Assembly (NCBI GenBank): GCA_030431975.1
Contig: JAUIHP010000017.1
Location: forward strand, 1-64,000
Direction: 5' to 3'
Origin: a bacterium
GTDB lineage: Bacteria > Eisenbacteria > RBG-16-71-46 > CAIMUX01
Length of the DNA stretch: 64,000 nt
Position numbers and translations under genes: made by a program. Below are positions 9,190 to 47,136 of the stretch, in pieces (the first letter of the stretch is position 1; each line of letters begins with the position of its first letter). Below the pieces are notes generated by a model. It worked only from the letters and a program-made list of their open reading frames with translations, was not told the DNA's origin and searched no databases.

Positions 9190-9580
9190 TGTGCGAACAG
9201 TACGCTTGGCAATGGCTGCCAGCCAACGCTCTTTCTCATTCCGCCGCCTCAACCTTCGTGTCGTCTTTCCCGGCGGGAGATTGGCCCCAATTGTTTCGCC
9301 GATGGCGCAGCTATCAAGGCAAAGGAGTGTTGCAGCTCCGCGTCCGCAGCTAGCCAGTTTGTCCGTCGGCTTGCGCGCCCGTCCCTGCACCCGCCGCGGG
9401 TGTGGATCCCGCTATCTGCCCGTGCTTCCGATTTGTCGTTTTCCTTGCCGTTCTTCAGACGTGACAAGTGCCCCTGCATAGGTCAAAGTAATCTGGCTCT
9501 TCAATTCGGCGCGGAGGACGCAGCGGCCAGCCCTGCCATATGAGCTGCCTAAGCTGTCGGTCCTCCGCGTCGGTTCCCTC
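9190..9580. other. Intergenic region; contains one copy of a palindrome related to the 46.4-kb array
   Basis: No convincing gene. At 9388-9405 it holds CACCCGCCGCGGGTGTGG, a palindromic core very similar to the core of the 60-bp repeats at 46431-46690. It presumably also carries the promoter of the small-protein/nucleotidyltransferase pair. Confidence 0.5.
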
Positions 9581-39509: not shown

Positions 39510-40259
39510 ATGCCCGAAACGACTTTTGAATTCATCGTCGCGATCTGTGCCGGAATCGGCCTCGCCGCCGCCGCAGGGATCCGCGCCTTCCTTCCGCTCC
39601 TCGCCGTCTGCATCGCGTCCCGCATCGGGGTCATCGAACTCAATCCCGGACTCGACTTTCTCCAGTCCAACGTCGCGCTCGTGGCGCTCGTATTGGCCAC
39701 CATCCTCGAGGTCGCCGCCGACAAGGTCCCTGTCCTCGACAACTTCCTGGACGTCGGCGCCACCTTCCTGCGGCCGGTCTCGGGCTTCATTGCCGCAATG
39801 GCCATGTTCGGCGAACTCCCATCGTCGGTCGCCGTCGCCATGGCCCTCTTTGCCGCGGCCATTTCACTAGGAACCCAACTCGGACGGGCCAAGGCGCGTC
39901 TCGGTTCGACCGCAACGACAGGTGGGCTCGCCAATCCGCTGTTGTCGACGGCCGAAGATGCCATCTCGGGAACACTCTCGGTGCTGGCGATCGTTCTGCC
40001 GCTTCTCGCGGCTGTGCTCGTCATCTTCTTTCTGTACCTGTTGTGGCGCTTCGTGCGCGGGATCCGTCGAGCGGCAGGACGCGCGGCGCAACATGTCACC
40101 GGTGGGACCTATCGAAACCCCGGCGTCGGTTCCGGCGGCGGGGATGTCGGCGCAAATTTCAGGTCCCGCCGAGCCGGACCACGGGACCCCTCGATGGAGC
40201 TCCGACCCGACTTCTCCAGCGATGGCGAACAGGAAGCCCCGCGAGACACCCGCTCGTGA
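39510..40259 (+). CDS. DUF4126 membrane protein
   Basis: The product is about 249 aa. I use ATG 39510; GTG 39477 is an alternative, and the AAGGAGGAG at 39480-39488 lies too far upstream to decide. The first 150 residues match DUF4126: GIRAFLPLLAVCIASRIGV, LEVAADKVPVLDNFLD and RPVSGFIAAMAMFG, each next to a membrane helix, then NPLLSTAEDAISGTLSVLAI. A long basic cytoplasmic tail (from about 185) is rich in Arg/Gly and probably disordered. The function of the family is unknown. The stop overlaps the methyltransferase start by GTGA. Confidence 0.85.
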   Translation: MPETTFEFIVAICAGIGLAAAAGIRAFLPLLAVCIASRIGVIELNPGLDFLQSNVALVALVLATILEVAADKVPVLDNFLDVGATFLRPVSGFIAAMAMFGELPSSVAVAMALFAAAISLGTQLGRAKARLGSTATTGGLANPLLSTAEDAISGTLSVLAIVLPLLAAVLVIFFLYLLWRFVRGIRRAAGRAAQHVTGGTYRNPGVGSGGGDVGANFRSRRAGPRDPSMELRPDFSSDGEQEAPRDTRS

Positions 40260-41224
40260 GATCCGGCTTCCTCGGCATCGGAAAGAAGACCCCCTCGAGC
40301 GAAACGGATCCCTACGACTCCTTTGCCTCCGTCTACGACCGGTGGCAAGACCTCTATACCCGTCCATTCTCTTTGGCCATGACCATCCGAATACAGCAGG
40401 CCTGGGAGGAGTTCGGCGTTCCGGAACAGTCGTTACTCGACTTCGCCTGCGGAACCGGAACGCTTGCATGGTGGTGGTCCGAGCACAATCCAGCCTGGGA
40501 AGTCGTCGGGGTCGACCGGTCTGCCCCAATGATCGAACGAGCCCTCCGAAAAGCCGACGGCGAGGTGTCGGAAGGTGGTCAGGACGTTGGGAGTACTGCG
40601 GGCGCCGGGGGTACTGAGGATGCCGGGGATGTCGGAAAAGACAGCGCTGGGCGGAATCTACACCCGCGGCGGGTACACGCTTCGCTGCCACCCTCAAGCC
40701 CGAGCTTTCATGTCGGCGACATATCTCGGTTGTCCCTATCCGATCTCAGGCACGGTTCCGGTTTCGGAATGGTCACCTGCTTCTTCGACAGCCTGAACCA
40801 CATCACCAAAACGAAAGAGCTCGAAGGGGCCCTCCGCTCTGCACGTCGCTGCCTACTTCCGGGTGGCCTGTTCGTTTTCGATCTGATCGACGTTGAATGC
40901 TTCCCGGAGATCTTCGGATCGCCCTGGATCGTTCAGAACGATCATCTCTACGTCGGCTGCGAGTCCGAGTACCTCGAGCGGCGCGGCGCGTCCTACGGAC
41001 GGGTCCACTTCACATTCTTCGAGCGCTCTGGCGAAAAAGCCGAATCGAGCAGTTGGAAACGCAGCGAGACCGAAATCCTCGAGCGCGCGTGGCCGCGTGA
41101 GGTCTTTGACCCGATGGTCGACGCCGCCGGACTCGAGATCATTCATGTGCAGCTGATCGATCCGGAAGAACAGCCGGACGTGTTCGTTCCTCGCCGCCTC
41201 TACGTCTGTCGCCCGAAGAACTAG
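40256..41224 (+). CDS. SAM-dependent methyltransferase (class I) with a repeat-derived insertion
   Basis: The product is 322 aa from GTG 40256 (GTGA overlap). N-terminal YDSFASVYDRWQDL, then motif I LLDFACGTGTLAWWW, motif II VVGVDRSAPMIERALRK, motif post-I FGMVTCFFDSLNHI and LLPGGLFVFDLI. This is the layout of small-molecule methyltransferases like those with the YxxxxxxYD...D start. Between motif II and the SAM-core strand lies an insertion of about 45 residues (from GEVSEGGQDVG to LPPSSP) encoded by short GC-rich repeats. It should sit on a surface loop. Substrate unknown. Confidence 0.88.
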   Translation: MRSGFLGIGKKTPSSETDPYDSFASVYDRWQDLYTRPFSLAMTIRIQQAWEEFGVPEQSLLDFACGTGTLAWWWSEHNPAWEVVGVDRSAPMIERALRKADGEVSEGGQDVGSTAGAGGTEDAGDVGKDSAGRNLHPRRVHASLPPSSPSFHVGDISRLSLSDLRHGSGFGMVTCFFDSLNHITKTKELEGALRSARRCLLPGGLFVFDLIDVECFPEIFGSPWIVQNDHLYVGCESEYLERRGASYGRVHFTFFERSGEKAESSSWKRSETEILERAWPREVFDPMVDAAGLEIIHVQLIDPEEQPDVFVPRRLYVCRPKN

Positions 41225-42938: not shown

Positions 42939-45900
42939 TTACTTCGTCACGACGATCGACTTGGTCTGGACCTGGTCGCCCGTGTCCAGCCGGAAGAAGT
43001 ACACGCCGGAACCGAGTTCGCGGCCCTCTTCATCCCGCCCGTCCCAGGCCCAGTCATATTCGCCGGCATCCAGGCTTTCTGATCCGTTGGCGAGTTCCCG
43101 GACCTGTCGTCCGCCGACATCGTAGACGCGAATGTTGACCGGACGGGACTCCGTCAAAGCAAAGCGTACCTGTGCGTGGCCGGTCGTTGGGTTAGGAAAC
43201 GCTTTCAAATGCGCCACAACGGAAGCGGCGGTCGGCGTCGAGGCCGGCTCCAGCCCGCCGAACACCTGAAAGTCGTCGATTCCCGCTTCAACGATCGAGC
43301 CTTCGCCGAGGTCCGATGCGACGAAGCGGATTCGCACTTCATCCGTCGTTTCCACGAAGTCCGCGATGGCAAACTCGTGAAGCTTCCACTCGGTGGCGGA
43401 CTCCGTCGTCCGAAGCAGCTCGGTCCAGTTCGATCCGCCGTCATCGGAGATCTCGACCAACCACTCATCGTCGATGGCGGTACCGGCGTTGTTCGAGTAC
43501 CAGTACCAATAGCTCACGACGGGATCCGAGGACGTCGAGACGTTGAAGTCTCCCGTGGTCAATGTCGTCGTCCCACCGTCAACATCGTTCTCGCCGTCAG
43601 CCCCGCCCGGGGATCCCTGACCCGTGACCCAGCAGTCTGTCCCCGGTTGCGGTGTGTGGTCGTCTTCGGGAGCCGCTCCGGTTCCGTTCGGATCGACACG
43701 TTCCCAGACGCCGGTGGTCGCGTCGTCGTCGGAGGCGCCGACGGTCCAGCCCGGATCGACCTCCATGTTGTATGCGGCCAACGCGACGGCGAGGTTGAAG
43801 TTCTGGACGGTGGACTCTCCTTCGACGACTTCGATGTCGGCTTGGGCTGTCTCATACCCGAAACGCTCGGCAACGAGCGTGTAGGTTCCGATGGGAAGCG
43901 CCGGAATCTGATAGCTACCGCCAAGCCCCGTCGAGACCGGATCGAGCGGTGTGTCCAGGACGGTGACAGTGACCCCGCTCAAGGTCAGCGGCGAATTCTC
44001 GAGCCGCACCGTTCCCATGACTGAACTCGAGGGGAGAGCGTTCAAGTCGATGTCGAGACCGAACTGCTCTTGCGCGGTGATCGTGACCGAAGTTTCGAAC
44101 GTTTCGAAGAGGAAGGTCTCCGCACGAATGTCGAAATCGCCGGCCGGCAGACCCAGGCTGTAGAGACCGTTCTCGTTGCTGACCACGCTGAATCCGGTTC
44201 CGACCGCTTCGACGCGGACACCCGGCACGGGATCACCGCTGTCGGCATCACGAACGACTCCCGCCAAAGAACCGAAGTCGTTCATCTGCTCGGCCAGAAT
44301 GGCTGCAGCCAGGCAGTCCACTTTGCCGGCGCCGAACTGATTGTCCTTCCCCGCCGGACCGAGGTCGACAGCTGTCGTCTGCAGAACCATGGCCATCTCT
44401 TCCGGCGTGATCTCCGGATACGCTCCCAGAATCAAGGCCATCGAACCCGCGATGTGCGGCGTCGAGGATGAGGTTCCGGAGAACCCACCGTAGCCACCGC
44501 CGATCAGGATCGAAATCGTTCCGGATCCTGGGGCCATCACGTCCGGCTTGATCAGCCCCGGCATGCCGCCCGACCACGGGTAGTCCCGGTACTCCTCACG
44601 CATCTCGAAGGGATACTCCGGCCAGTTCGCACCGATGTCCTCCCATGCAAACGGGCCGAGAGAGGAGAAGGAGGCCCAACCGTCCGACTCGGTGATCGCG
44701 CCGCAGCCCGAGGTGATTCCGCTGACACCGGCCTGCACCTGTTCCGGATGAGCCCACGGCGTCGGGTTGGATCCCGGCGCAGAGATGTTGAACGGAATCG
44801 GATCGGTTCCAGGGTTGTCTCCCTCGTTACCGATCGAGTTCGCGTGATGAATCCCCGTGAGAAGGATTCCGTCCGTAACAGAACGCCACCAGTCGTAATC
44901 CGGCTTCGGAGAGAAACGCCACTTCTGGGAACGACTCATGCTGATGACATGGGCCCCGTTGTCGATCGCGTACTGGATGCCTTCGATGTTTTGGCCCCAC
45001 GAACTGACGAAGCAGGCCATGACCAATGCCTTTGGGGCAACGCCGGTTCGTGTCCCTTCCGTGCCGTCGCCCGCCGCATTGCCCGCACACTTCGTGCCGT
45101 GATCACGGCTGGCTCCCGACGGCGCGGGCATCGGATCGTTGTCGCCGTTTGCGAAGTCCCAACCCCAGGTATCGTCGACATAGCCGTTGTTGTCGTCGTC
45201 GATCCCGTTGTTCGGAATCTCGCCGTCGTTGTTCCACATGTGACCGGCGAGGTCCGCGTGCGTGCGATCCACACCATTGTCCTGGACGGCAATGATGATG
45301 CCTTCGCCTTCGTAGCCACGATCCCAGGTTTGCGGCGCGTTGATGTTTTCCAGCTGCCAGAGTTCGGTTCCACGACGCATCGCCTCGATCTCGGCAGCGC
45401 CCACGGGACCACGCTCGAAGATTTCGTCGTGAGCATGCTCCGCCGCGATCGGCGGATCCCAGATGAGAGAGCGGATCCCGGGCTTTTGGGATAGCTCTTC
45501 AATCGTCGCCGGAACCGCGTCGAGAAGGATTCCGTTGGCCACCCAGAGTGAGCGAAGTTGGCTCACCCGACCCGCTGCTTCTTCGGATTGAAGAAACGAG
45601 AGCAGCGGCGCCTGCGTGCGATCGGCCAAGTCACGAAGCTCTGTGCGCGCGACCGATCGCCGATCCTTGGAGGACAGGCCCGCCACGGAGGCCAGCGCCA
45701 GATTCAGATCCACCTGGTCTTCGAGCACGACGATGACCGGAATTTTCTCGTCCGACGCCGCGCGGTCCATCGCGGAACGAAGATCGGGAGTCACGACGGC
45801 AGCCGATGCGTACGAAGGCGAGGACACCTGGAGCTCAGACGCGGATGACTCGGACGCGGATGATTCGGACGCGGATGACTCCGTTGCGGCCACCGAGTGT

Positions 45901-46223
45901 GCCGAGTCCGAACCCGCGGCGGTGGCTGCCGGCACATTAGGCAGCACAAGATATGCACACAGCGCCAGAAGTGCAGTAAGTGCAGCGGGAAGCGCGCGAA
46001 ATGGAGGACGCATGGGGAGCTCGCGAAGCGCAGGGCGCATGGGAAGCCCGCGGAGCGAAGGGCGCATGGGAAGCCCGCGAAGAGTACGGATGCCGAGGGC
46101 AGCTGGCGCCTCTTCGGGCGCAACGGCGTCTGCTCGAACCCCATCGGTCTGTGGACCAAGGGCCGCCGTGGTTCGGCGATTGGAAGGTCGCGGACTTTCA
46201 TGACAGCAAGTGGGTACAGTCAT
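42939..46223 (-). CDS. Secreted subtilisin-like serine protease (S8) with carboxypeptidase-regulatory-like domains and FlgD-type C-terminus
   Basis: About 1094 aa. Start uncertain: ATG 46223 has AAAGGAG 11 bases upstream; GTG 46235 and ATG 46232 are too close to it. After a 70-residue leader made partly of LRGLPMRPS-type repeats comes a hydrophobic signal (LTALLALCAYLVL). S8 catalytic residues: Asp in AVQDNGVDRTH (near 313), His in RDHGTKCAG (near 376), Ser in SGTSSSTPHIAGS (near 582). Two carboxypeptidase-regulatory-like beta domains follow (LAGVVRDADSGDPVPGV; VMGTVRLENSPLTLSGV), then a MAM-like region (DEWLVEISDDGGSNW), then the FlgD-like module (AFPNPTTGHAQVRF, GRQVREL, GSGVYFFRL). Probably exported across the outer membrane. 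Confidence 0.92.
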   Translation of the reverse strand: MTVPTCCHESPRPSNRRTTAALGPQTDGVRADAVAPEEAPAALGIRTLRGLPMRPSLRGLPMRPALRELPMRPPFRALPAALTALLALCAYLVLPNVPAATAAGSDSAHSVAATESSASESSASESSASELQVSSPSYASAAVVTPDLRSAMDRAASDEKIPVIVVLEDQVDLNLALASVAGLSSKDRRSVARTELRDLADRTQAPLLSFLQSEEAAGRVSQLRSLWVANGILLDAVPATIEELSQKPGIRSLIWDPPIAAEHAHDEIFERGPVGAAEIEAMRRGTELWQLENINAPQTWDRGYEGEGIIIAVQDNGVDRTHADLAGHMWNNDGEIPNNGIDDDNNGYVDDTWGWDFANGDNDPMPAPSGASRDHGTKCAGNAAGDGTEGTRTGVAPKALVMACFVSSWGQNIEGIQYAIDNGAHVISMSRSQKWRFSPKPDYDWWRSVTDGILLTGIHHANSIGNEGDNPGTDPIPFNISAPGSNPTPWAHPEQVQAGVSGITSGCGAITESDGWASFSSLGPFAWEDIGANWPEYPFEMREEYRDYPWSGGMPGLIKPDVMAPGSGTISILIGGGYGGFSGTSSSTPHIAGSMALILGAYPEITPEEMAMVLQTTAVDLGPAGKDNQFGAGKVDCLAAAILAEQMNDFGSLAGVVRDADSGDPVPGVRVEAVGTGFSVVSNENGLYSLGLPAGDFDIRAETFLFETFETSVTITAQEQFGLDIDLNALPSSSVMGTVRLENSPLTLSGVTVTVLDTPLDPVSTGLGGSYQIPALPIGTYTLVAERFGYETAQADIEVVEGESTVQNFNLAVALAAYNMEVDPGWTVGASDDDATTGVWERVDPNGTGAAPEDDHTPQPGTDCWVTGQGSPGGADGENDVDGGTTTLTTGDFNVSTSSDPVVSYWYWYSNNAGTAIDDEWLVEISDDGGSNWTELLRTTESATEWKLHEFAIADFVETTDEVRIRFVASDLGEGSIVEAGIDDFQVFGGLEPASTPTAASVVAHLKAFPNPTTGHAQVRFALTESRPVNIRVYDVGGRQVRELANGSESLDAGEYDWAWDGRDEEGRELGSGVYFFRLDTGDQVQTKSIVVTK
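45837..45892 (-). repeat. In-frame 15-bp Ser/Glu repeat in the second subtilisin
   Basis: About 3.7 units of GACGCGGATGACTCG on the plus strand encode repeated ASESS on the minus strand, just after the signal sequence. Frame is kept. Confidence 0.9.
46011..46091 (-). repeat. In-frame 27-bp repeat in the leader of the second subtilisin
   Basis: Three 27-base units, each starting CATGGG(G/A)AGC on the plus strand, encode LRGLPMRPS-like nonapeptides. Each unit contains an in-frame ATG, so copy number also sets the number of possible internal starts before the signal helix. Confidence 0.9.
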
Positions 46224-46430
46224 TGGGTGCATCACTCCTTTGGCTGCGGCTGGCCTCGATTGGCCGACCCGGTCGACTATGGCGTCGACCGACGAGCAAT
46301 CGAAAGCTGGGAGAGGGTGCCGGGCCGGACGAGTTCAATAGTGGCGGACAAAAGTTTCCGCAGAACAGAGTAGCACAGGACCCATCCGGCGGTCAGAAAC
46401 ACGCCCGTCACGCCCCATCCCCCTGCTCTC

Positions 46431-46690
46431 TCCATACCCGCTGCGGGTGTGGACGCTGCGTAAGTACGGGATCCGTGGACTTATCGCTCTTCCATACCCG
46501 CTGCGGGTGTCGGCGCCGCATAAGTACGGAATCCGTGGACTTATCGCACTTCCATACCCGCTGCGGGTGTCGGCGCTGCATAAGTACGGAATCCGTGGAC
46601 TTATCGCACTTCCGCACCCGCTGCGGGTGTCGGCGCTGCATAAGTACGAGATTCGTGGAGTTATCGCACTTCCGCACCCGCTGCGGGTAT
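46431..46690. repeat. Exact 60-bp tandem array with nested palindromes
   Basis: Four full units and a partial fifth begin at 46431, 46491, 46551, 46611 and 46671, with period exactly 60. Units 2 and 3 differ at one base. Each holds the palindrome ACCCGCTGCGGGT and, 14-19 bases on, ATAAGT-ACGGA-A-TCCGT-GG-ACTTAT, a nested inverted repeat (perfect in units 2 and 3). It lies in the 529-base gap between divergent genes (second subtilisin and DUF2255-like). Because 60 is a multiple of three, several frames stay open with a 20-residue period on both strands. I do not think any is a gene. Confidence 0.95.
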
Positions 46691-46764: not shown

Positions 46765-47136
46765 GTGTTTCCACCTGAGTTTCTCACCTACCTGCGGCAG
46801 CACACTCTGGTCGGCATCAAGGTCGGGCTCGATCGGGATCGATTCCTCGACCTTTGGATGGTGGAAGTGTCGGGTCGGATCTTTGCGCGTAGTTGGAGCC
46901 GAAGCACTTCGGGATGGTTTGGGAAAGCCGTAGAGGGCGAGCCGACCGAGATTCGGTTCGGAGACCAGATACTCTCCGTCGTCGGCCGACGCCCTCCCGA
47001 GGAGGAGGGGCTCATGGCGCGAATCGATCGTGCCTATCTCGAGCGGTTCACGCAGCCCGGGAACGTGCCTTATGCGGAGGGAATCTCCAAGCCGGAGTAC
47101 CATCCCTTCACGGTCGAGTTCATTCCGGTCTCGTAA
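46765..47136 (+). CDS. DUF2255-like small protein
   Basis: The product is 123 aa from GTG 46765 (GGAG ten bases upstream). The order VGIKVGLDRDRFLDLWMVEV, GRIFARSWSRSTSGWFGKAV, TEIRFGDQILSVVGRRPPEE and HPFTVEFIPVS resembles DUF2255, a small beta-barrel-like family related to flavin/F420-type nitroreductases. The resemblance is by eye and moderate. It stands alone between the 60-bp array and a convergent hydrolase gene. Confidence 0.65.
   Translation: MFPPEFLTYLRQHTLVGIKVGLDRDRFLDLWMVEVSGRIFARSWSRSTSGWFGKAVEGEPTEIRFGDQILSVVGRRPPEEEGLMARIDRAYLERFTQPGNVPYAEGISKPEYHPFTVEFIPVS

Follow-up and report, generated by a model that had tools for sequence, protein, structure and literature searches.

Many of the palindromic repeats found in bacterial genomes have been traced to RAYT transposases, and other short inverted sites, such as loxP and dif, are the core sites of tyrosine recombinases. 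Among the palindromic repeats, the closest described systems are the REP sequences and the BIMEs. According to PMC2817692, REPs usually exceed 100 copies, and BIME-2 elements are tandem BIME-1-like units that bind gyrase. According to PMC3733652, a REP bears a GTAG or CGTC tag at one end of its palindrome and most REPs are situated where the flanking genes are convergent or unidirectional, while CGTC-tagged REPs, clusters of which are described as rare, have no associated transposase gene. The literature that we surveyed, represented in part by titles and the opening of abstracts, held nothing on the palindrome sequences described below or on tandem repeats of Eisenbacteria.

Here we describe a tandem array of 60-bp units in a 64-kb stretch of Eisenbacteria DNA (hereafter the window). 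We put at about one in two the probability that this array belongs to a family of composite palindromic repeats that is dispersed in its genome, private to its lineage and REP/BIME-like in behaviour.

The array and its two dyads

The array was delimited by TRF at 46431-46688, with a period of 60, 4.3 copies, 93% matches, 0% indels and a score of 418. The four units plus a partial fifth given in the preliminary description are thus borne out, as are the single-base difference between units 2 and 3 and the location of the array between divergent genes. The ATAAGT/ACTTAT inverted repeat that it attributed to each unit is exact in units 2 and 3, and inexact in unit 1 (GTAAGT/ACTTAT) and unit 4 (ATAAGT/AGTTAT). 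The locus is composed as follows.

42939 to 46235, minus strand: left neighbour, S8 (subtilase) peptidase with a FlgD_ig/Por_Secre_tail C-terminus; its true start is uncertain (45770 for the codon-usage caller)
46431 to 46688, plus strand: tandem array, 4.3 units, period 60 (TRF and sequence)
46436 to 46448, plus strand: pal1 dyad of unit 1 (ACCCGCTGCGGGT)
46458 to 46486, plus strand: pal2 dyad of unit 1 (GCGTAAG...TTATCG)
46496 to 46508, plus strand: pal1 dyad of unit 2
46518 to 46546, plus strand: pal2 dyad of unit 2
46556 to 46568, plus strand: pal1 dyad of unit 3
46578 to 46606, plus strand: pal2 dyad of unit 3
46616 to 46628, plus strand: pal1 dyad of unit 4
46638 to 46666, plus strand: pal2 dyad of unit 4
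46676 to 46688, plus strand: terminal pal1 dyad, partial unit 5
46765 to 47136, plus strand: right neighbour, DUF2255 protein

Each unit holds two different dyads. The first, pal1, is ACCCGCNNCGGGT, mostly a perfect 13-bp dyad; the second, pal2, is GCATAAG-NNCG-N6-GTG-N3-TTATCG, a dyad of two ATAA-N3-C half-sites which, as read from the alignment, lie 21 bp or two helical turns apart. The sequence ACCCGCTGCGGGT occurs in five copies spaced 60 apart in the window array (46436, 46496, 46556, 46616 and 46676). With at most one mismatch, ACCCGCNGCGGGT is found 7 times in the window vs 0.38 expected (100 dinucleotide shuffles, largest value 2).

Distribution of the family

The preliminary description had proposed a genome search for further copies, and this search was fruitful. 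The genome of origin (6.19 Mb in 59 contigs) yielded 19 BLAST matches to the repeat, and a sequence-only profile built from 54 aligned units yielded 56 full-unit matches, 55 of them in seven arrays and one solitary (C5:404091-404166). The arrays comprise 4 units in C3 (that of the window), 6 in C5, 8 in C13, 12 in C21 plus the start of C22, 9 in C22, and 8 in each of two arrays of the C41 contig (C41a and C41b). In the count of seven, C21 and C22:1-198, which lie at contig ends, are taken together. Indeed, the contig ends and the shared unit types suggest that C21:1-552 and C22:1-198 are probably one array split by the assembly; the two ends may overlap, in which case some of the 12 units were perhaps counted twice. 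The period is 60 in C3 and C5, and 61 in the other five arrays.

Measured centre to centre, pal2 is followed by the next pal1 at 30 bp in 50 of 50 cases, whereas the distance from pal1 to pal2 is 31 bp (38 cases), 30 bp (13) or 32 bp (2), a count that omits one 2-bp value, due to an overlapping fuzzy match in C22, and in which one degenerate pal1 of C41a is unmatched. Since the spacing is fixed on one side and variable on the other, the module is probably pal2-30 bp-pal1, with a looser joint to the module that follows. This agrees with the solitary C5 unit, whose order is pal2-pal1.

Beyond the full units, several pal1 copies outside the arrays are preceded by GGAATCTRY, five of them exactly, and C33 holds a small array with a period of about 63. 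The motif ATRTCGGA stands at the same distance from pal1 in C33b, C33c, C3:40629-40674 and C47, and is absent from the other solitary pal1 sites read. A gene for a ParE-type toxin lies near the small C33 array (L036 3983-4354). Two solitary sites fall in the window.

9389 to 9401, plus strand: solitary pal1 palindrome (ACCCGCCGCGGGT), without a clear second half
40629 to 40674, plus strand: solitary sister (type B) module, ATGTCGGA...CGGAATCTAC followed by pal1, in the methyltransferase frame 40256-41224

The sister module leaves the methyltransferase frame unbroken, and it is located within an apparent insertion of the methyltransferase domain. Solitary sister modules that share one layout, one of them inside a gene, argue for the dispersal of single modules.

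Outside the genome of origin, a DNA search of 59 genomes, that genome included, found the repeat in none of the 58 others, and a profile search of 11 genomes of the order found it in none of the 10 others. Among 47 genomes of the class, pal1 is enriched in the genome of origin only, with 52 occurrences of ACCCGCNGCGGGT vs 1 of the reversed pattern; the other 46 have 0-3 vs 0-6 for the reversed pattern and show no enrichment. The palindromic core, whose complete absence elsewhere or from related strains had been named as a point that would count against the preliminary description, is therefore present elsewhere in its own genome and without enrichment in the 46 others of the class. The exact pal2 pattern gave 2 unrelated single matches in a named genome collection, which may omit the genome of origin, and 1 in viral contigs, all without tandem context; this pattern matches 35 of the 54 known units, so that the search could overlook a lone diverged copy. 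No such array was seen 3' of the S41 genes in six genomes of the order (stretches L049-L054), L052 not being counted as its longest frame is on the other strand, and the L051 match being read on the minus strand. Judged by these sequence comparisons, the repeat is private to its lineage, within a sampling whose members all come from outside the genus.

A TRF survey revealed no other such family, either in 464 kb of the genome of origin, window included, or in 397 kb taken from two relatives. TRF rows amounted to 24.1 per 100 kb in the genome of origin vs 15.5 and 16.7 in the two relatives. In the window, TCGGTG is repeated 18.7 times without error at 1625-1736, and a 43-bp, 5-copy tandem repeat occupies a contig end of a genome of the same family (L058 1-212).

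Constraint, gene context and possible roles

When the consensuses of the seven arrays were compared, the 29 dyad columns showed 0 differences vs 2.17 per column in the 35 others. Within arrays, variants number 31 of 1536 in the dyads vs 221 of 1853 elsewhere, and dyad positions are about sixfold less variable than linkers; the dyad columns were drawn after the alignment had been seen, which leaves the within-array test partly independent only, and tandem units are non-independent samples, so that the Fisher value on these counts is not a probability. Columns sorted only by their invariance between arrays gave 31 of 1589 vs 221 of 1800. Invariant dyads together with divergent linkers fit recognition by one or more proteins, and the repeat is probably recognised by some protein.

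Units are on average 82-90% identical within an array and 60-75% identical across arrays, the pair C3-C5 being an exception at 88%; the solitary C5 unit shares 54-66% with all arrays. The nearest relative of a unit lies in its own array in 51 of 54 cases, the exceptions being two C3-C5 pairings and the solitary unit, which indicates that the arrays were amplified in place. On these identities the C3 and C5 arrays are sisters. Moreover, nucleotide variants are private to each array, and decaying units stand at the array edges. Homogenisation of this kind with decay at the edges is what unequal exchange alone would produce, as expected of a neutral minisatellite family in which chance palindromes were spread by duplication and are conserved only through youth. 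We consider such a family very improbable: the arrays have come to differ from each other in the linkers but in none of the 29 dyad columns, these columns also vary little within arrays, and only one of the two spacings is constant.

The flanking genes are convergent at C5, C41a, C41b and C21/C22, co-directional at C13 and C22, and divergent at C3. The C13 array is followed by a small lipoprotein-like gene with a ribosome-binding site, as read by eye, and a 17-bp degenerate tandem repeat (AATCGGG-like) adjoins the C41a array (L012 4465-4555). Convergent pairs thus flank 4 of 7 arrays vs 6 of the 43 gene pairs that the codon-usage caller gives for the 64-kb window, a binomial P of 0.009 at the window rate and of 0.07 if the true rate is 25%; without the C21/C22 array the figure is 3 of 6 (P about 0.04). 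With seven arrays and a base rate from one 64-kb window, this bias toward convergent genes is suggestive only. The flanking genes differ at every one of the seven arrays compared, with no neighbour gene in common. Control of a divergent gene pair, which the preliminary description had envisaged, does not hold as a general role, as only one array in seven is divergent and the core also occurs alone.

A coding repeat was considered and rejected: the period is 61 in five arrays, and all six frames are stopped in C21, C41a, C22 and C41b. The open frames of the C3 array are a by-product of its period of 60.

The same convergent arrays could suggest a transcribed array of RNA hairpins, acting as bidirectional terminator or as 3'-end stabiliser of the adjoining genes, and the 276-nt stretch folds with a z of about -9 vs shuffles on either strand, as any palindrome array would. 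Three arrays, however, lie upstream of a gene, a separate intrinsic-terminator-like hairpin stands between the S41 gene and its C41 array, and only two terminator-like matches were found inside arrays (six regions scanned, C21/C22 excluded). Furthermore, covariation for two hand-set structures did not rise above shuffled alignments (0.125 vs 0.129 and 0.115 vs 0.122), RNAalifold gave 6 pairs with a covariation term of -0.03, and no Rfam family matched the window at its gathering score. The structured RNA of the preliminary description is thus unsupported, and we find the hairpin reading distinctly doubtful. Two other options raised there do fit the findings: that the repeat is a mobile palindromic family, and that the array is a cluster of sites for protein binding.

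These two options meet in the dispersed repeat family that we favour. Some enzyme would have inserted single modules at new sites, where unequal exchange or slippage then raised their number. The dyads may be kept because one or more proteins recognise both in double-stranded DNA; in pal2, the two ATAA half-sites lie on one helix face, and by analogy with BIME-2 arrays, which serve gyrase in E. coli, the array could act as a cluster of binding sites.

Clusters of binding sites could also be functional for the host, kept by selection and not mobile, as chromosome organiser, partition or centromere-like site, topoisomerase site or titration device, with two dimeric proteins, or one with two site types, binding pal1 and pal2. 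This would accord with the strong constraint on both dyads, the fixed 30-bp spacing, the two helical turns between pal2 half-sites, the repeated placement outside genes and the several solitary pal1 sites in broad gaps between divergent genes (L036, L037 and L038). A core chromosome function would nevertheless be expected to be shared with relatives, whereas there are only seven arrays and none in the relatives searched, and one sister module falls within a coding frame; we regard the host-functional reading as possible, if on the unlikely side.

The arrays provide ready-made baits for a candidate binding protein. A compact family that has two distinct conserved dyads at fixed spacing, that was amplified locally and for which no RAYT was detected would offer a test of how repeats of this sort spread and are maintained.

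Comparison with known systems

The likeness to CRISPR arrays lies in the regular period and in the palindromic repeat that bounds most arrays. The difference is that unique spacers are lacking and that the whole 60-61 bp unit is conserved in tandem; indeed the would-be spacers carry a conserved motif of their own, in agreement with the earlier statement that the array is not CRISPR.

With the core sites of tyrosine recombinases the repeat shares the layout of pal2, that is inverted half-sites (G-N2-SS-ATAA-N3-C-R) around a variable 7-bp centre. It differs in having no cassettes between sites. The genome of origin holds three PF00589 genes, all away from the arrays, so that no cognate recombinase stands beside them; nor did any other mobiliser turn up in their vicinity. 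There is a slim chance that some site-specific DNA enzyme has pal2 as its core site, with its accessory factor bound to pal1 at the fixed 30-bp distance; the arrays would then be cassette-free recombination platforms, or footprints of an element that spreads by extending itself module by module. If this enzyme-site reading of pal2 were true, the repeats would be spread by a system unrelated to RAYT transposases.

The 55 units of the seven arrays and the solitary unit are short, dispersed, intergenic and palindromic, as in REP/BIME families. No GTAG or CGTC unpaired tag is conserved beside pal1 or pal2 in the alignment, CGTC occurring only in C41a linkers. The copy number, 56 units and 52 pal1 sites, stays below that usual for REPs, and a search for RAYT (Y1 HUH transposase, PF01797) gave 0 matches in the genome of origin, which is 97% complete, while the same search gave matches in 5 of 14 genomes as a control. 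On account of the tag, the copy number and the RAYT search, we do not file the repeat as a REP family. The CGTC-tagged REPs resemble it in being palindromic and in having no transposase gene associated with them; the present units differ from them in being tandem, not head-to-head dimers, and in having no CGTC at a palindrome end.

Compared with enterobacterial BIME-2/REP arrays (Y and Z2 units), the present family has two unrelated dyads where those arrays alternate the orientation of a single REP, 7 arrays with 55 units in all where those have hundreds of sites, and neither a GTAG/CGTC tag nor a RAYT gene found in its genome. What it has in common with them are intergenic tandem arrays with two sorts of palindrome in regularly spaced alternation, a species-restricted occurrence, several arrays between convergent genes, and solitary copies in addition to the arrays.
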